From an uncultured Agathobacter sp. (GTDB lineage Bacteria > Bacillota > Clostridia > Lachnospirales > Lachnospiraceae), in NCBI GenBank assembly GCA_934365945.1, contig CAKRNE010000027.1:1-26187 (forward strand): a stretch of 26,187 bases of DNA, read 5' to 3'. Positions within the stretch are counted from its first letter, which is position 1; every line of letters begins with the position of its first letter. Position numbers and translations under genes: made by a program. Below are positions 2,670-14,451 of the stretch, in pieces. The notes beneath the pieces are model-generated. The model ran no database searches and was not told the origin of the DNA. It was given only the letters and a program-made list of their open reading frames with translations.

Positions 2670-2697
2670 TTGACTTTAGGCAGATTTTTGGTATAAT
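2670..2697 (+). promoter_or_regulatory. Strong promoter of the type III antitoxin RNA
   Basis: TTGACT (2670-2675), 16-base spacer, consensus TATAAT (2692-2697). The predicted start near 2704 lies about 16 bases before the first RNA repeat. It is the only good promoter between the nitroreductase and the toxin, as expected when one promoter drives both antitoxin RNA and toxin. Confidence 0.7.
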
Positions 2698-2719
2698 AAG
2701 ATTGAGAAAAGATAAAATG

Positions 2720-2807
2720 TTAAAGAGGGTGTCCCACTACCCATATCCCAAAGGTGGAACTTTAAAGAGGGTGTCCCACTACCCATGTGAAAGGTGGAAC
2801 TTTAAAG
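2720..2807 (+). ncRNA. cptI: Type III antitoxin RNA: about two 40-nt tandem repeats (CptI/ToxI-like)
   Basis: Two near-identical units lie head to tail, 2720-2760 (41 nt) and 2761-2800 (40 nt), and a third starts with TTTAAAG at 2801-2807. Each unit is TTAAAGAGGGTGTCCCACTA, then CCCAT, four to five variable bases, then AAAGGTGGAAC. Unit junctions carry TTTAAAG; A-rich junctions are where type III toxins cut their antitoxin precursor. In type III systems such repeats fold as pseudoknots that bind and inhibit the toxin. Position (promoter, repeats, terminator, toxin) is the textbook order. Assignment to the cpt rather than tox or tenp branch rests on the short array, the unit length and the resemblance of the toxin to the CptN described from Eubacterium rectale, from memory. 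Confidence 0.8.
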
Positions 2808-2810
2808 CGA

Positions 2811-2839
2811 ATGGAGAGGAGCAATCTTCTCCATTTTTA
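2811..2839 (+). terminator. Intrinsic terminator between antitoxin RNA and toxin gene
   Basis: Stem ATGGAGA (2811-2817) with TCTCCAT (2828-2834), followed by a short T run. It ends only a few bases before the toxin ribosome site AAGGAGA (2844-2850). In type III systems this leaky terminator sets the excess of RNA antitoxin over toxin mRNA. Confidence 0.75.
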
Positions 2840-2853
2840 CGTTAAGGAGAAAT

Positions 2854-3426
2854 ATGGCAAAGATTGAAAAATTTGGATTTTATACTGTGAAAGCTGATTA
2901 TCTGCAATTTCTTAACAGCATGGATTCCGAGGTATACTATAATGCATCATACCAAACAGCAGTGAAGCCATTTGTAGGTATTGTGATTATGGTTGCGGAT
3001 TACCACTATTTTATTCCGCTTACCTCGGCAAAAATGAAACATACAAAATGGAAAAATGTATCAGACGAGTGTTTCTTGATTTATGAAATTTTGAAAAATG
3101 AACGTGTCTTAGACGGATATATATGCAAGGAATATTCGGATGAGAAGAAATTACATATACTGTCGGTACTGGATACCAAGAAAATGATACCAGTTCCTGA
3201 AAACGCCTATCAGAAAGTGGAATTCAATGAACTCGAAGATGTGAAGTACAGAGATTTATTTCGAAAAGAATATGCTTTCTGTCTCAAAATTCAGGACAAG
3301 ATTTTAAAACGGGCAGAAAAGATATATGACAGACAGAAAAAAAGCGGAAAGGTCAGACATGCTTATTGCAATTTTTCTTTATGTGAAAAAGCATTAGAAG
3401 ATTGGAAAGAGCTTGAGCAAAAGTAA
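2854..3426 (+). CDS. cptN: Type III toxin-antitoxin toxin, endoribonuclease (ToxN/AbiQ/CptN family)
   Basis: 190 residues from the ATG at 2854 behind AAGGAGA. The N-terminal part matches the ToxN/AbiQ fold signature: FGFYTVKADYLQFL, an SYQTAVKPFVGIVI strand, and YHYFIPLTSAK with T57, S58 and K60, corresponding to the active-site Thr-Ser region of ToxN. Length suits the family (about 150-200). These toxins cut mRNA and their own antitoxin precursor, stall growth and in several cases abort phage infection; they are held inactive by the pseudoknot RNA encoded just upstream (2720-2807). Expression would need read-through of the hairpin at 2811-2839. No second toxin or protein antitoxin lies nearby. 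The cptN symbol is my best subfamily guess; the type III call is firmer. Confidence 0.85.
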   Translation: MAKIEKFGFYTVKADYLQFLNSMDSEVYYNASYQTAVKPFVGIVIMVADYHYFIPLTSAKMKHTKWKNVSDECFLIYEILKNERVLDGYICKEYSDEKKLHILSVLDTKKMIPVPENAYQKVEFNELEDVKYRDLFRKEYAFCLKIQDKILKRAEKIYDRQKKSGKVRHAYCNFSLCEKALEDWKELEQK

Positions 3427-3492: not shown

Positions 3493-3993
3493 ATGTACAA
3501 CGAAAATTATTCTATAATATTCAGTAGTATGACCGGCAACACACGTAAGCTGGCTGATAAAATTCATGAAATATTGCCAAAGGAGAGCTGCGATTATTTT
3601 GGCACGGCTGATGCGCAGGGGATAGAATCCGAATTGCTATACATTGGATTCTGGACGGATAAGGGAAACGCAGATAGCGATACATTAGATTTCTTATCTA
3701 AATTGAAAAATAAAAAGATATTTCTGTTCGGAACAGCCGGTTTTGGAGGAAGTGATGCATATTTTCAAAGGATTCTTGGCAATGTTAAAAGCGCCATTGA
3801 TTCAAGCAACACCATTGTAGGAGAATATATGTGTCAGGGCAAAATGCCATGGTCTGTGAGGGATCGTTATGTGAAAATGAAAGAAAACCCGGAGCATCCG
3901 GATAATATTGATGCGCTGATTGAAAATTTTGACAGGGCTTTGTCACACCCGGATGCAGATGATATAGAGCGACTAAAAAATACTATTATTTAG
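3493..3993 (+). CDS. Flavodoxin family protein
   Basis: 166 residues, with AAAGGAGG (3478-3485) before the ATG at 3493. The phosphate-binding loop SSMTGNTRKLA (about residues 11-21), the GFWTDKGNADSDTLDFL segment and LFGTAGFGG identify a short-chain flavodoxin of the Flavodoxin_3-like group, which binds FMN and passes electrons to partner enzymes. Only 18 bases separate it from the alcohol dehydrogenase downstream, so the two form an operon. Similar gut Firmicute proteins carry the name BilS (accessory to bilirubin reductase), but no bilR-like reductase is visible here, so that role is not supported. Confidence 0.85.
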   Translation: MYNENYSIIFSSMTGNTRKLADKIHEILPKESCDYFGTADAQGIESELLYIGFWTDKGNADSDTLDFLSKLKNKKIFLFGTAGFGGSDAYFQRILGNVKSAIDSSNTIVGEYMCQGKMPWSVRDRYVKMKENPEHPDNIDALIENFDRALSHPDADDIERLKNTII

Positions 3994-4011
3994 CAGGAGG
4001 TATTATAATAT

Positions 4012-5169
4012 ATGTACAATTTCACATTCAACATTCCAACAAAGATTCATTTCGGAAAGGATACCATTTCGAGCTTATCAGAGCTTAAGGCATATGGCAG
4101 CAAGGTGCTCTTAGTGTACGGAGGCGGCTCTATAAAGAAAAATGGTCTCTACGATACAGCAATGAAGATCCTTAAGGATGCGGGGCTGATCGTGTTTGAG
4201 CTTAGCGGAGTGGAGCCAAACCCAAAGATTGAGACAGTCAGAAAGGGTGTTGAAATATGTAAAAATGAGGGTATCGACATGGTACTTGCAATAGGAGGCG
4301 GCAGTACAATCGATTGCTCAAAGGTTGTTGCAGCAGGTGCAAAGTATGATGGTGATGCATGGGATCTGGTGCTTGATGGCTCGAAGGTCAAGTCGGCACT
4401 TCCGATATTTGATGTGCTTACTCTTTCCGCAACCGGAACAGAGATGGATCCTTTTGCTGTTATCTCTGATATGTCTAAAAATGAAAAGTGGGGAACAGGA
4501 TCGCCGTATATGGTGCCAACTATGTCAATATTAAATCCTGAATATACTTTTTCTGTATCAAAAAAACAGACTGCAGCAGGAACCGCAGATATGATGAGCC
4601 ATACAATGGAGAATTATTTCTCTATGGAGAATGCTGACTGCCAGAAATTTATGGCAGAGGGATTGTTACGTACAATGATTAAAAATGGACCGGTTGCCCT
4701 CGCACAGCCTGACAACTACGAGGCCAGAGCCAACCTGATGTGGGCAGGCACACATGCAATCAACGGTGTTGTGGGCGATGGCTGTTCACCGGCATGGTGC
4801 GTACATCCTATGGAGCATGAGCTGAGCGCTTTCTATGATATTACCCACGGAGAGGGACTTGCAATACTCACACCGGCGTGGATGGAGCACATACTAAATG
4901 ACGACACACTTCCGATGTTTGTGGAGTTTGCAAAAAATGTCTGGGGACTTTCCGGTGATGATGATTATGCACTTGCACACGCTGGCATTGATGCGCTGAA
5001 GAAATTCTTCTTCGAGACAATGGGCATTCCTGCAAATCTTAGAGCTGTGGGAATCACAGACGACAGGAACTTTGAGGTGATGGCAAAGAAGGCCTGCGAG
5101 GGTTCAAAGGGATCGTTTGTACCGCTTAGCAAGGACGATATTGTGGAAATTTACAGAGCGGCTTTCTAA
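4012..5169 (+). CDS. Iron-containing alcohol dehydrogenase (butanol dehydrogenase/YqhD-like)
   Basis: 385 residues, ATG at 4012 preceded by CAGGAGG. Group III alcohol dehydrogenase: nucleotide loop GGGS at 37-40, as in NADPH-using YqhD and butanol dehydrogenases; GGGSTIDCSK near 96-104; TGTEMD near 141; metal ligands most likely D193, H197 (TADMMSHTMENYF), H265 and H279 (HPMEHELSAFYDITHGEG). Full length. It would reduce short-chain aldehydes such as butyraldehyde with NAD(P)H, fitting fermentative electron disposal. The preference for NADPH is inferred from S40. It shares an operon with the flavodoxin and ends before a clear terminator. Confidence 0.93.
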   Translation: MYNFTFNIPTKIHFGKDTISSLSELKAYGSKVLLVYGGGSIKKNGLYDTAMKILKDAGLIVFELSGVEPNPKIETVRKGVEICKNEGIDMVLAIGGGSTIDCSKVVAAGAKYDGDAWDLVLDGSKVKSALPIFDVLTLSATGTEMDPFAVISDMSKNEKWGTGSPYMVPTMSILNPEYTFSVSKKQTAAGTADMMSHTMENYFSMENADCQKFMAEGLLRTMIKNGPVALAQPDNYEARANLMWAGTHAINGVVGDGCSPAWCVHPMEHELSAFYDITHGEGLAILTPAWMEHILNDDTLPMFVEFAKNVWGLSGDDDYALAHAGIDALKKFFFETMGIPANLRAVGITDDRNFEVMAKKACEGSKGSFVPLSKDDIVEIYRAAF

Positions 5170-5315: not shown

Positions 5316-5738
5316 TTATCTTGATACACCCAGCTTTACCATGAGAGCCTCCTGTAAAACGCGTGATACGTTGATATGGGATTTCTCAGCTTCCTGATTA
5401 AGCCAATTAGGGAGAGTGACATTTCTTCGGACGGTTTTATTGTCGACCTTCCGGCGGTATTCATCAAAATCTATATCCACAAATGAAACATGACTAATAC
5501 CAGTATTGTCAAAGGGACCGTTTTTGATGTCAATATCTGAAATATCACTTGGAACCGGAATTTCCCTGCCAAGATCCTGTAATGTGATTCCGTTTGCTCC
5601 AATGGCGTCGCGAGCCATCTCTATAGCATCTGGTAGACCGAAGCCCTCTGTTAATATATTCATATCAGGAACATTAATAAGCACGGTGTCTTTTTTATCA
5701 TTTAATTGTGTAAATATAACTGGATATACCTGTTTCAT
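5316..5738 (-). CDS. hicB: HicB-type antitoxin
   Basis: 140 residues from the ATG at 5736-5738, with GGAGG (complement of 5749-5753) ten bases upstream; the frame extends further 5' without a ribosome site. The N-terminal half (YPVIFTQ, LINVPDMNILTEGF, LPDAIEMARDAIG) is the partly degraded RNase H-like HicB fold. The C-terminal half (VRRNVTLPNWLNQEAEKSHINVSRVLQEAL) is a ribbon-helix-helix DNA-binding domain. It neutralises HicA and should repress the operon through the palindrome at 5988-6008. It follows hicA by 55 bases in the usual toxin-first order. Confidence 0.92.
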   Translation of the reverse strand: MKQVYPVIFTQLNDKKDTVLINVPDMNILTEGFGLPDAIEMARDAIGANGITLQDLGREIPVPSDISDIDIKNGPFDNTGISHVSFVDIDFDEYRRKVDNKTVRRNVTLPNWLNQEAEKSHINVSRVLQEALMVKLGVSR

Positions 5739-5793
5739 AATATAATATCCTCCATAAATTAATGTATATATAATATGTGATAAATTATAAATG

Positions 5794-5964
5794 TTATAAT
5801 CCCCATTTACGTAAAATTGCTTTTGCAAGCATTTCGTTGATCTCTTTATGCCTTGGGATCTGTTCTATATCTGAACCTCGAACATATACGTCATGATTAC
5901 CGCCATGTCTGGAAAATTCAAATCCGGCAGCCTCCAGTTTCTTGATAAGCTCTCTTTGTTTCAT
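5794..5964 (-). CDS. hicA: HicA-type mRNA interferase toxin
   Basis: 56 residues from the ATG at 5962-5964, with GGAGGAG (complement of 5971-5977) just upstream; earlier in-frame starts overlap the promoter and are unlikely. Complete HicA domain: KQRELIKKLEAAGFEFSRHGGNHDVYVR, with the catalytic histidine in GGNHDVY, then IPRHKEINEMLAKAILRK. HicA is a small dsRBD-fold, ribosome-independent RNase. Nothing suggests inactivation. Confidence 0.93.
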   Translation of the reverse strand: MKQRELIKKLEAAGFEFSRHGGNHDVYVRGSDIEQIPRHKEINEMLAKAILRKWGL

Positions 5965-5985
5965 AAATGCCTCCTCCATAATCAT

Positions 5986-6014
5986 AATATACACATTAAG
6001 TGTGTATAAGTCAA
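5986..6014 (-). promoter_or_regulatory. hicAB promoter with embedded operator palindrome
   Basis: On the minus strand: TTGACT (complement of 6009-6014), 17-base spacer, TATATT (complement of 5986-5991). The spacer and -10 box hold an inverted repeat, TATACACA / TGTGTATA at 5988-5995 and 6001-6008 around TTAAG. This is the expected site for autorepression by the HicB ribbon-helix-helix domain (inference). Confidence 0.7.
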
Positions 6015-6054
6015 CAACCTTTTTAAAAACAAAATATACAAATATGAAAAATAT

Positions 6055-6099
6055 ATAAGCCATGTTACCACCACAGCGGTGAGAACATGGCTTATTTTT
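6055..6099 (-). terminator. Terminator hairpin downstream of the 6121-6579 gene
   Basis: 12-bp perfect stem ATAAGCCATGTT (6055-6066) with AACATGGCTTAT (6084-6095). On the minus strand the stem is followed by a T-rich run (about 6046-6052); on the plus strand by TTTT. Its place suggests it ends leftward transcripts before the hicAB promoter. Confidence 0.65.
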
Positions 6100-10420: not shown

Positions 10421-11365
10421 ATGAATACAGCCTCAAAGACAAGACATGTCTTTATTTTGTTTTTGGCAGATATAGTCTGGGGAATAGCCTTTGTAGCGCA
10501 GTCAAAGGGAGGGGACGCAGTTGGAGCATTTTCATTCAACGGTATCCGCTTCCTTATTGGTGCGCTCTGCCTTCTGCCGGTCATAAAAATACTGGATGTA
10601 AAGGAGCTGACGGTAAACAAGCCTGAAAGCAAAAAGAAAAAGAAAGAGCTTTGGATAGCCGGAAGCTGCTGTGGAATAGCGCTATTTTTTGCAAGTAACC
10701 TGCAGCAGCTTGGAATCAGCATGGGCGCAGAATCCGGTAAGGCTGGGTTCCTTACAGCTACATATATACTTATGGTGCCGATACTTGGGATTTTCCTCAA
10801 AAGAAAATGCAAAGCCAAAATATGGATAGGCGTATTTATTGCACTGATAGGCATGTATTTTCTGTGCATGAATGGGGCATTTTCACTTAGTGGCTCGGAT
10901 TTGCTCCTGTTGGCAGGGGCATTGTGCTTTGCGATACAGATACTTGTTATAGACCATTTCGTATCACAGGTAGATGCGGTCAGACTCTCCTGCATAGAGT
11001 TTTTTGTCACAGGGCTTGGCTCATGTATAGTGATGATTTTTACAGATATGGGACCGTCTGCCGGCGGTATAGCGCAGTGGGCGCAGTCGCTTTGCACGTG
11101 GGATGCATGGATTCCGATTCTCTATGCCGGCATTTTTTCAAGTGGAGTGGGCTATACGCTGCAGATTGTCGGACAAAAGGGCTTAAACCCGGCGGTAGCA
11201 TCGGTGGCGATGAGTCTTGAGTCGGTGGTTTCTGTGATTGCAGGATGGATTCTGCTTGGCCAGATGCTAGGTGGCAGAGAAATTTTTGGATGTGTGCTCA
11301 TGTTTATTGCGATAATTATTGCACAGCTTCCGGATAGGGAGTATACTAAACAGGTTACAGTATAA
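10421..11365 (+). CDS. EamA/DMT-superfamily transporter, ten TM helices
   Basis: 314 residues from the ATG at 10421 behind GGAGG. Two EamA repeats: the first from ILFLADIVWGIAFVAQSKGG (about 12-30), with FNGIRFLIGALCLLPVI and SAESGKAGFLTATYILMVPILG. The second starts at about 163 (DLLLLAGALCFAIQILVIDHFV) and ends in GLNPAVASVAMSLESVVSVIAGWILLGQ. A basic loop (KPESKKKKKEL) lies after helix 2. The family exports or imports small metabolites, often amino acids; the substrate cannot be inferred. It stands alone, not in a visible operon. Confidence 0.9.
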   Translation: MNTASKTRHVFILFLADIVWGIAFVAQSKGGDAVGAFSFNGIRFLIGALCLLPVIKILDVKELTVNKPESKKKKKELWIAGSCCGIALFFASNLQQLGISMGAESGKAGFLTATYILMVPILGIFLKRKCKAKIWIGVFIALIGMYFLCMNGAFSLSGSDLLLLAGALCFAIQILVIDHFVSQVDAVRLSCIEFFVTGLGSCIVMIFTDMGPSAGGIAQWAQSLCTWDAWIPILYAGIFSSGVGYTLQIVGQKGLNPAVASVAMSLESVVSVIAGWILLGQMLGGREIFGCVLMFIAIIIAQLPDREYTKQVTV

Positions 11366-11471
11366 AATGAAATGTGATTATTCAGAATCACTGAGATCAA
11401 AAAAGCACGAGTATAGTGTGATTTTGCGAATGTACATGGGATGAATAGTTACAACAAGATAGGGATTGGAT

Positions 11472-12575
11472 ATGAGAAATAATAGCAGAAAAAATTACAG
11501 ACGACGCAGACGAAATACAGGAGCTTCACAGATTAAGCTTGTAGGAATAGTGGCTGTGATAGTCGTCATAGCAATCATAATAGTTATATCATGCTTTAAT
11601 AAAGCAAAAAAAGACAGTAATAAGGCAAAAGACACAGGAGCTGCCACAGAAAATGTGACTGGTGTGACAGAGCAGGAGAGTGAGACAGAGGAAGCAAAGG
11701 AGCTCTTTACACCAAAGGAGTCAGATGCCACAGCAGCAATCGGAGATGAGCTTGAGAGCTCTTATGCCGTAGTGATTGATGAGCAGGATGGCACAGTTGT
11801 TGCGGGAAAGAATGCACATGAGAAAATGTACCCGGCTTCCATGACAAAGGTTATGACAGTGCTTGTTGCAGCAGAGCAGGCTGAGAAAAATGCGGTAGAT
11901 GCAGCGAAGACTGAGAATACCGAAATAGACAGGCAGGCTGTGATAGAAAACAAGCTCAACGAGGTTGTGACCATCACAAGAGAAGCCACAGATTATTCAT
12001 ATGTGCATGATTGCAGCACAACAGGATTTTTAGACGGTGAGCAGGTGCCGCTTCGCGATGTGTTTAACGGAACCATTCTGCCATCAGGTGGAGAATCGGC
12101 ATATCAGCTTGCGGTTTACACAGCAGGCTCAATGGAGGCCTTTGTTGATATGATGAACCAGAAGGCAGCAGAGCTTGGTATAGGCCAGACCACGCATTTT
12201 GCAAATCCTGTTGGTATATATGATGAGAACAATTACAGCACAGCCTATGATATGGCGGTCATCATGCAGGCAGCGATGCAGGACGATATTTGTAAAACAG
12301 TACTTTCAAATCATACATACAGCACGGTTGCAACGCCACAGCATCCGGAGAATCTGAACATATCAAATCTGTTTTTGCGCCGTATAGAGGACAAGATGAC
12401 AAGTGGCGAGGTAATCGGTGCAAAGACAGGCTTTGTAAATCAGTCCGGCAACTGTGCGGTCAGCTATGAGAAGGCAGCCAGCGGAAAGACATATATATGT
12501 GTGACAGCAGGAGCTTCAAGCGGATGGCACTGTATAGATAATCATGTGTATTTATATAATACATACGGCAAGTAA
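11472..12575 (+). CDS. D-alanyl-D-alanine carboxypeptidase family protein (S11, PBP5-like)
   Basis: 367 residues from the ATG at 11472, seven bases after AGGG (11461-11464); the TTG at 11466 is too close to it. A very basic N-terminus (about 1-20) is followed by a membrane helix (about 23-41), a T/E-rich linker, and the serine-peptidase domain. SxxK is S123-M-T-K126 and KTG is 318-320. The SxN position reads S205-G-G rather than S-x-N. It would trim the terminal D-Ala of peptidoglycan stem peptides outside the membrane. The anchor is N-terminal and the usual C-terminal PBP5 domain and amphipathic tail are absent. Confidence 0.9.
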   Translation: MRNNSRKNYRRRRRNTGASQIKLVGIVAVIVVIAIIIVISCFNKAKKDSNKAKDTGAATENVTGVTEQESETEEAKELFTPKESDATAAIGDELESSYAVVIDEQDGTVVAGKNAHEKMYPASMTKVMTVLVAAEQAEKNAVDAAKTENTEIDRQAVIENKLNEVVTITREATDYSYVHDCSTTGFLDGEQVPLRDVFNGTILPSGGESAYQLAVYTAGSMEAFVDMMNQKAAELGIGQTTHFANPVGIYDENNYSTAYDMAVIMQAAMQDDICKTVLSNHTYSTVATPQHPENLNISNLFLRRIEDKMTSGEVIGAKTGFVNQSGNCAVSYEKAASGKTYICVTAGASSGWHCIDNHVYLYNTYGK

Positions 12576-12592
12576 TCAGCACAGCTGATTTT
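12574..12592 (+). other. Small hairpin between carboxypeptidase and methyltransferase genes
   Basis: AATCAGC (12574-12580) and GCTGATT (12584-12590) form a 7-bp stem with a 3-base loop overlapping the stop codon, followed by only two more T and then the ribosome site AAGGAG. It could be a weak terminator or processing site. Confidence 0.35.
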
Positions 12593-12605
12593 AAGGAGTA
12601 CAGAT

Positions 12606-13853
12606 ATGTCGGGAAATCAGGGCAATTCCAGGGAAAAAACAACGCGTAATGAGAAAAAATACAAAAATGCCACCGGACAGCCGAGGGTGAAGGAGAAAAG
12701 CAGCCGGGCAAAAAGCGATAACGTATGTCCGTATGCGAAGAAATGTGGTGGCTGCGACTATCAGGGCGTAGAATATAAGGAACAGCTAAAAACCAAGCAG
12801 GCATACATGAAAAAGCTGCTAAAGCCTTTTTGCTTCGTGGAGCCGATTGTCGGCATGAAAAATCCGCTCCATTATCGTCACAAGGTTCATGCAGCCTTTG
12901 ACTGCACGAGACGCGGTCAGATTGTGGCGGGAGCCTACAGGAAAAACACACATGATGTGGTGGATATCGAAAGCTGCATGATAGAGGAGCAGGAGTCAGA
13001 TGAGATAATCAGAGACATAAAGGATATGCTGCGCTCATTCAGGATAAAGACCTATGATGAGGACACCGGCTATGGGCTTCTCAGACATGTGCTTGTGAGA
13101 AAGGGCTATGCAACAGGGCAGATAATGGTAGTGCTTGTACTGGCATCACCTATACTTCCGTCGAAGAATAATTTCGTAAAAGCACTCAGGAAAAAGCATC
13201 CAAATATCACAACAGTGGTGCTCAACGTGAATGACAAAAAGACGAGCATGGTGCTTGGAGACAGAAACATCACACTTTATGGCAAGGGTTTCATAGAGGA
13301 TAAGCTGTGCGGCTGCACCTTCCGTATCTCACCAAACTCATTCTATCAGGTGAATCCGGTACAGACGGAGCTTTTATACGAGAAAGCCATTCATGAGGCA
13401 CACCTCACCGGCAAGGAGCGTGTAATCGATGCATATTGCGGCACCGGAACCATAGGCATCATAGCAGCAAAAAATGCAGGTGAAGTCATTGGAGTCGAGC
13501 TGAACCGTGATGCAATCCGCGATGCAGTCACCAATGCAAAGCGAAACGACATCAGAAATATCCGCTTCTACAATGATGATGCCGGAAAATTCATGGTCGA
13601 GATGGCACAAAAGGGTGAGAAGGCAGATGTTGTCATAATGGATCCTCCAAGAACCGGCAGCGATGAGGCGTTTTTATCATCGGTTGTCAAGCTGTCACCG
13701 GAGAGGGTGGTGTATGTGTCATGTGGTCCGGAAACACTGGCGAGGGATTTAAAATACCTCACAAAGCATGGGTATGCAGTGAAATGCGCAACACCATATG
13801 ACTGCTTTCCATATACAGAGCACATAGAAACAGTTGTGTTACTTTGCAGGTAA
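12606..13853 (+). CDS. rlmD: 23S rRNA (uracil-C5)-methyltransferase, RlmD/TrmA family
   Basis: 415 residues, with AAGGAG before the ATG at 12606. A basic, disordered N-terminus (1-40) leads to an iron-sulfur cysteine set C41, C47, C50 and C124. The SAM-binding methyltransferase core follows: IDAYCGTGTIGIIAA (274-288), MDPPRTG (345-351), nucleophile C373 in YVSCGPETLARDL, and E408 in the C-terminal HIETVVLL as proton acceptor. It adds methyl to U1939 (and possibly U747, as RlmCD does in Bacillus) of 23S rRNA. Unlike E. coli RlmD, no N-terminal TRAM domain is evident, so the exact target is uncertain. Confidence 0.9.
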   Translation: MSGNQGNSREKTTRNEKKYKNATGQPRVKEKSSRAKSDNVCPYAKKCGGCDYQGVEYKEQLKTKQAYMKKLLKPFCFVEPIVGMKNPLHYRHKVHAAFDCTRRGQIVAGAYRKNTHDVVDIESCMIEEQESDEIIRDIKDMLRSFRIKTYDEDTGYGLLRHVLVRKGYATGQIMVVLVLASPILPSKNNFVKALRKKHPNITTVVLNVNDKKTSMVLGDRNITLYGKGFIEDKLCGCTFRISPNSFYQVNPVQTELLYEKAIHEAHLTGKERVIDAYCGTGTIGIIAAKNAGEVIGVELNRDAIRDAVTNAKRNDIRNIRFYNDDAGKFMVEMAQKGEKADVVIMDPPRTGSDEAFLSSVVKLSPERVVYVSCGPETLARDLKYLTKHGYAVKCATPYDCFPYTEHIETVVLLCR

Positions 13854-13956
13854 ATGGTCAATAATAGTATTCCAATTCGCCGTCAAATGGTGTAGAATAA
13901 AAACTACTTTCCATGTATACTAATGAATGATTACAGCCCATATACGGAGGACAAAC

Positions 13957-14451
13957 ATGAGAACGCTATATACATTTGACAAACACAACTATTCCGATGA
14001 TATGGAGGTATTTGAGCGCTTCGCAGTGCGCGCGGTTATTATCAGAGACGGAAAGCTTGCCATGCAGCAGGCCGGTGAGGGCTACTATAAGATACTGGGC
14101 GGCGGTATTGATGCAGGCGAGACCAACGAGGTGGCGCTGGCAAGGGAGGTGCGCGAGGAGGCAGGGCTTCTTGTCGTGCCGGAAAGCATCAGGGAGTGTG
14201 GCAAGGTCATAGAAAAGAGACGCGATATATTTGAGGATGACAAGATATATTATTGTCACACCTATGTGTATTTCTGCGATGTGAGGGACGAGCATGTAGC
14301 CGCACAGATGACAGACAGTGAGATAAGGCTTGAGTATCATCTGTCATGGGCCACACCGGACGAGATAATAAAGGCCAACAGAGCCTTTCTTGATAAAGAA
14401 TGGATAGCAAGAGATACTAAGATTGTTGAGTTGATAAAAGAAATGTGTTAA
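13957..14451 (+). CDS. NUDIX hydrolase
   Basis: 164 residues from the ATG at 13957 behind GGAGGA; an ATG at 13927 in frame has no ribosome site. The full Nudix box is present: GGGIDAGETNEVALAREV followed by REEAGLLV, with the REEAG metal-binding glutamates (about residues 50-72). It hydrolyses a nucleoside diphosphate linked to another moiety; substrate unknown. It is a single gene between rlmD and the SseB-like gene, with a hairpin just past its stop. Confidence 0.92.
   Translation: MRTLYTFDKHNYSDDMEVFERFAVRAVIIRDGKLAMQQAGEGYYKILGGGIDAGETNEVALAREVREEAGLLVVPESIRECGKVIEKRRDIFEDDKIYYCHTYVYFCDVRDEHVAAQMTDSEIRLEYHLSWATPDEIIKANRAFLDKEWIARDTKIVELIKEMC

Follow-up and report, generated by a model that had tools for sequence, protein, structure and literature searches.

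Our analysis identified a type III toxin-antitoxin operon of the ToxIN family at positions 2670-3426 of a 26,187-nucleotide stretch of DNA from an uncultured Agathobacter sp. (contig CAKRNE010000027.1), which we refer to as the window, and we hold this assignment with very high confidence. The locus follows the order promoter, tandem repeat array, terminator hairpin, ribosome-binding site and an open reading frame (ORF) for a toxin of 190 amino acids, and it is a real, complete and ordinary ToxIN system. An earlier sequence-only reading had already recognised a type III RNA-protein system here, a call borne out by the gene order, the toxin family, the active-site residues, the pseudoknot and its covariation. 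That reading had also placed the locus near CptIN, and the family has to be corrected to ToxIN.

The toxin gene, toxN (2854-3426, + strand), encodes a predicted endoribonuclease of the ToxN/AbiQ family, identified through Pfam, sequence matches in the Protein Data Bank (PDB), alignment and predicted structure. The protein matches PF13958 (3.3e-42), the LTSxK segment expected in this ORF is present as LTSAK at residues 56-60, and at the positions of the active-site Tyr, Lys, Thr, Ser and Lys of ToxN-Pa the alignment places Y33, K38, T57, S58 and K60. PMC5086642 and PMC8860590 use the sequence of the toxin to divide type III systems into ToxIN, CptIN and TenpIN. Because the families are defined in this way (PMC5086642), and because the toxin sequence and the predicted structure both point to ToxN, the locus belongs to ToxIN by the toxin-sequence rule, an assignment made from Pfam and PDB matches rather than from a tree with CptN and TenpN references, with the proviso that PF13958 might also cover CptN.

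A CptIN-family system would form a ring of two toxins and two RNAs, and we consider it highly improbable here. Up to an E-value of 10, the PDB sequence matches of the toxin were to ToxN and AbiQ structures only, the CptN entry 4rmo possibly being absent from that sequence file. The predicted structure gives a Z of 20.6 to ToxN and 12.8 to CptN in the VIA-align comparison, where 4rmo is present; its absence from the 50 Foldseek matches listed is uninformative. Membership in CptIN was rejected on these sequence matches and Z values. In addition, the predicted helix at residues 130-164 is broken at residue 146 and resembles the kinked long helix of ToxIN toxins, a kink that CptN is described as being without (PMC4627078), and the repeat of CptI-Er does not fit the unit pattern described below, a comparison with a single CptI and with a pattern drawn from the units found here. 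The count of about 2.1 repeats, taken earlier as a mark of the cpt branch, does not discriminate between the families because units number 2, 3 or 4 in the 27 relatives whose ToxN appears intact.

The antitoxin array was delimited by Tandem Repeats Finder at 2720-2807 (period 42, 2.1 copies, score 146), and the sequence pattern resolves it into two ToxI units on the + strand. Unit 1 (2720-2761, 42 nt) has stem 1 as GGGU 2727-2730 with ACCC 2739-2742 and stem 2 as CCAC 2734-2737 with GUGG 2754-2757, leaving 11 nt from ACCC to GUGG; unit 2 (2762-2801, 40 nt) has GGGU 2769-2772 with ACCC 2781-2784 and CCAC 2776-2779 with GUGG 2794-2797, leaving 9 nt, so that its long loop is 2 nt shorter. Each unit fits an H-type pseudoknot: GGGU and ACCC pair to enclose a loop of eight bases, and the CCAC within this loop pairs with the downstream GUGG. 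The repeats had been described as two near-identical copies of 40 nt plus the start of a third: the two complete units stand, and what follows them is not a third unit but only the shared unit end UUUAAAG (2801-2807). Over the whole 26-kb window the pseudoknot pattern matched nowhere except at these two units, both on the + strand; the - strand gave no match. Shuffling the window 200 times gave a mean of 0.32 matches, and one shuffle of the 200 contained two matches within 60 nt; this null, made of mononucleotide shuffles in 500-base blocks, is approximate, since the pattern was drawn after the units had been seen.

In 41 of the 43 sequences surveyed the toxin is preceded by units that match the pattern, 96 units in total, the exceptions by this pattern being the loci L048 and L050. 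The survey took the window and 42 of the 55 related loci, leaving aside 13 whose match starts at residue 23 or later; when 17 loci previously scored with no unit or one were re-examined, 9 proved to have two units and 3 to have one, and 5 had none. It is important to note that the pattern demands GG/CC in stem 1, a pyrimidine/purine pairing at the fourth pair of that stem and a G at base 5, and thus the invariance of these features is by construction; nothing in stem 2 is demanded. A MAFFT alignment of 59 of the 96 units (58 distinct) was prepared after removal of duplicates; four distinct units were also left out (L032:2416, which has no clear end, L012:5899, L017:5903 and L045:5849). One further unit, the middle one of three at L044:5837-5951, was not counted: both its stems have diverged from the pattern, yet it still looks able to pair.

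The stems of the pseudoknot covary among these relatives, stem 1 being partly fixed by the pattern and stem 2 not at all. Of the alignment cells for the eight core pairs, 98.7% are paired, compared with 85.5% in shuffles and 32-58% when the pairing is slid, and two-sided changes number 85 (24.4 in shuffles, none of 500 reaching the observed value); 12 of the changed cells fall at the constrained fourth pair of stem 1, and 73 at positions that the pattern left free. Core stem 2 is paired in every cell, with changes from C-G to U-A in 25 sequences and from G-C to A-U or U-A in 24. With two further stem 2 pairs, which the window units form only partly, 91.6% of the cells are paired and the two-sided changes number 86 (31.2 in shuffles). 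The number of pairs with a two-sided change and the number of pair types are not above shuffles, 130 and 300 of 500 shuffles reaching them, respectively. We give more weight to the sliding control because shuffles ignore relatedness and some units share an array. These results leave hardly any room for the idea that the repeats are a chance repeat or a regulatory leader of the toxin gene rather than an antitoxin. Such an idea could draw on the evidence coming from sequence and on an unremarkable plain fold, and it is opposed by the recurrence of same-pattern units upstream of the same toxin and by the covariation of the 59 aligned units.

For ToxI of E. coli, conservation is reported for the two central G-C pairs in stem 1, G5, two loop A's and A6 (PMC8860590); the central pairs and G5 are present here, both being demanded by the pattern, and two loop A's occur in 55 of the 59 units. 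Stem 2 can be extended to six pairs in 21 of the 59 units, leaving a one-base loop 1, and a one-base loop 1 is a feature of CptI-Er, the 45-nt CptI of Eubacterium rectale (PMC5086642). Many units have a long loop 2 of 9-12 nt, and in several relatives of the Anaerococcus/Peptoniphilus type stem 1 and core stem 2 lie 5-6 nt apart in the first unit and 10-11 nt apart in the second.

Among the 55 related loci, the 27 with an apparently intact toxin all have two or more units upstream (2 to 4), and the other 28, whose toxin is broken, partial or cut by a contig end by our own rule (at least three lie at contig ends), have 0 to 2. Because every locus with an apparently intact toxin keeps two or more units, this distribution is consistent with a dependence of the toxin on the antitoxin. 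It also indicates that decay is common among these loci, which is the argument for regarding the locus in the window as a decayed or inactive ToxIN remnant. We consider that very unlikely: the ORF is of full length with all five active-site residues, and the promoter, both units, the terminator and the ribosome-binding site are all present.

A separate observation concerns a segment of several kilobases that carries the ToxIN locus and is mostly 96-99% identical across 18 loci in Peptoniphilus, Anaerococcus, Ezakiella, Fenollaria, Urinicoccus and related genomes. Nine of these loci (L033-L041) have a broken toxin frame, the first 46 toxin residues are unmatched in eight (L018, L022, L023, L025, L026, L028, L029 and L046), and L003 is intact; the 17 loci other than L003 keep antitoxin units, one seen in L046 and two in each of the rest. 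This segment looks like a recently spread mobile element that has lost its toxin more than once. Another locus, L055:3996-4682, has two units and an apparently intact toxin, 42% identical, in a viral contig (IMG/VR), and is the single relative given by one scan of viral contigs.

Upstream of the array, a sigma-70-type promoter with a TG before the -10 box (TTGACT-16 nt-TATAAT, 2670-2697, +) matches 11 of 12 consensus bases. It is the top match of five in the window scan; the resemblance to the consensus claimed for it holds, and this match to the consensus is suggestive only, given that shuffled sequences yield 4.5 matches at the same loose threshold. The intrinsic terminator proposed between antitoxin and toxin is seen at 2809-2838 (+), with a 12-bp stem (2809-2820/2825-2836), a GCAA loop and a T run; the scan found one terminator where 0.5 was expected. 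The ribosome-binding site AAGGAG lies at 2844-2849 (+). The last UUAAAG processing-type site before the terminator (2802-2807, +) has matching sites at 2720-2725 and 2762-2767, and by analogy with the family this UUAAAG/UUUAAAG site between units is likely to be the ToxN cut site. The reported ToxN cut sites are AAAU (Pa), AAAAA (Bt) and GAAAU (E. coli) (PMC8860590).

From what is described for the family we infer transcription, cutting, ring assembly, toxicity and phage defence. One promoter would drive a short RNA that contains the two ToxI pseudoknot units and in most cases stops at the terminator, and occasional read-through would supply toxN mRNA. ToxN would be expected to cut the precursor within the A-rich UUUAAAG sites that separate the units and to remain attached to the liberated units, forming with them a closed ring in which its active site is blocked. 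If ToxI synthesis stopped, for example because a phage had shut off transcription in the host, this short-lived RNA would be lost, and free ToxN would cut A-rich sites in mRNAs, leading to growth arrest (abortive infection) or to a stabilised carrier DNA.

Several points weigh against the identification as a ToxIN operon. First, transcription, cleavage and toxicity rest on family analogy, the locus being known from its sequence alone, and the counts of promoters and terminators are close to those in shuffled sequence. Second, Rfam gives no gathering match in the window; three weak matches near the repeats (U6, a frameshift site and a lncRNA; E up to 5) are far under the cut-offs and were discarded as chance. 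Third, the plain minimum-free-energy fold of 2700-2860 has ordinary stability (z -1.14; 24 of 200 shuffles equally stable), a result that is uninformative because the program cannot form pseudoknots. Fourth, the window units depart from known ToxI RNAs: their extended stem 2 contains one C.A mismatch, leaving a 3-nt loop 1 unless it is bridged; they measure 40-42 nt against 34-36 nt in three characterised ToxI RNAs (PMC5086642); and base 6 is U in the window and in 51 of the 59 units, in contrast to the A6 reported as conserved among E. coli clusters (PMC8860590). Finally, a more distant set of 11 toxins keeps K38, S58 and K60 invariant, and Y33 is not among the invariants listed.

The operon is probably chromosomal, judging from its neighbours. 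To its left lie an AAA-ATPase_like/PDDEXK_9 gene (233-1942) and a nitroreductase gene, and to its right a BilS-type flavodoxin, an iron alcohol dehydrogenase and then a HicB/HicA pair. The AAA/nuclease region had been described as duplicated, which is not confirmed within the window: there is one such gene among the seven left-hand ORFs scanned, and the repeated part is the end of the nitroreductase gene, a direct duplicate of 138 bp (1-138/2423-2560, 94% identical, from a comparison of 1-2000 with the rest of the window) comprising the 3' end of that gene and 19 bp beyond. A tandem nitroreductase duplication is possible, perhaps with the AAA/PDDEXK gene between the copies and the left copy leaving the window. 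The suggested defence or mobile hot spot is not borne out for this window: the 17 ORFs scanned with Pfam, which include only a minority of those right of 14.5 kb, gave no match to a transposase, integrase or phage family, although a HicAB pair is found about 2 kb away. No tRNA was found in the window. The HicA-HicB type II pair occupies 5316-6063 (-) (HicA, PF07927, 1.7e-10; HicB-like, PF15919, 1.9e-7). The flavodoxin (3493-3993), beside the alcohol dehydrogenase, scores 244.5 bits to the NCBIfam BilS model (cut-off 155), which we take to describe an accessory flavodoxin of bilirubin reduction. Close relatives, whether carrying the locus or lacking it, did not turn up when 3493-5166 was compared with 397 genomes in the family of Lachnoanaerobaculum saburreum (the genome of L009) and 10421-14451 with four genomes from two genera; the strongest similarity, 80% identity, covered part of the alcohol dehydrogenase gene.

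The locus is otherwise one further member of a well-studied defence family, and what our study adds is a comparative view, backed by covariation, of an antitoxin RNA that has no Rfam match in the window. The ToxIN toxins of Bacillus thuringiensis (4ato) and Pectobacterium atrosepticum (2xd0) are 26-28% identical to this toxin in structural alignment. Their units, 34 nt x 2.9 and 36 nt x 5.5, respectively, and those of antiQ in the AbiQ/antiQ system of Lactococcus lactis (4glk), 35 nt x 2.8, differ from the two units of 42 and 40 nt found here (PMC5086642 for the published units). The E. coli ToxIN (7d8o) has A6 where U stands here, and about 6 nt between stem 1 and the stem 2 core, derived by us from the numbering in PMC8860590, against 11 and 9. 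The CptIN of E. rectale (4rmo) has a toxin of another family. A 'ToxN/AbiQ family toxin' of [Ruminococcus] gnavus (P0097; PF13958), known by annotation only, shares 55% identity with this toxin across 98% of the query. Because of the long loop 2, the one-base loop 1 in 21 of 59 units and the two unit lengths per array, it is conceivable, and in our judgement rather unlikely, that ToxI geometry in this branch lies between ToxI and CptI and that the ring might differ from the 3:3 hexamer, for example as a 2:2 ring or one mixed from unlike units. Arrays with two unit lengths, as in several relatives, offer a natural experiment on how ring stoichiometry is determined in type III complexes.
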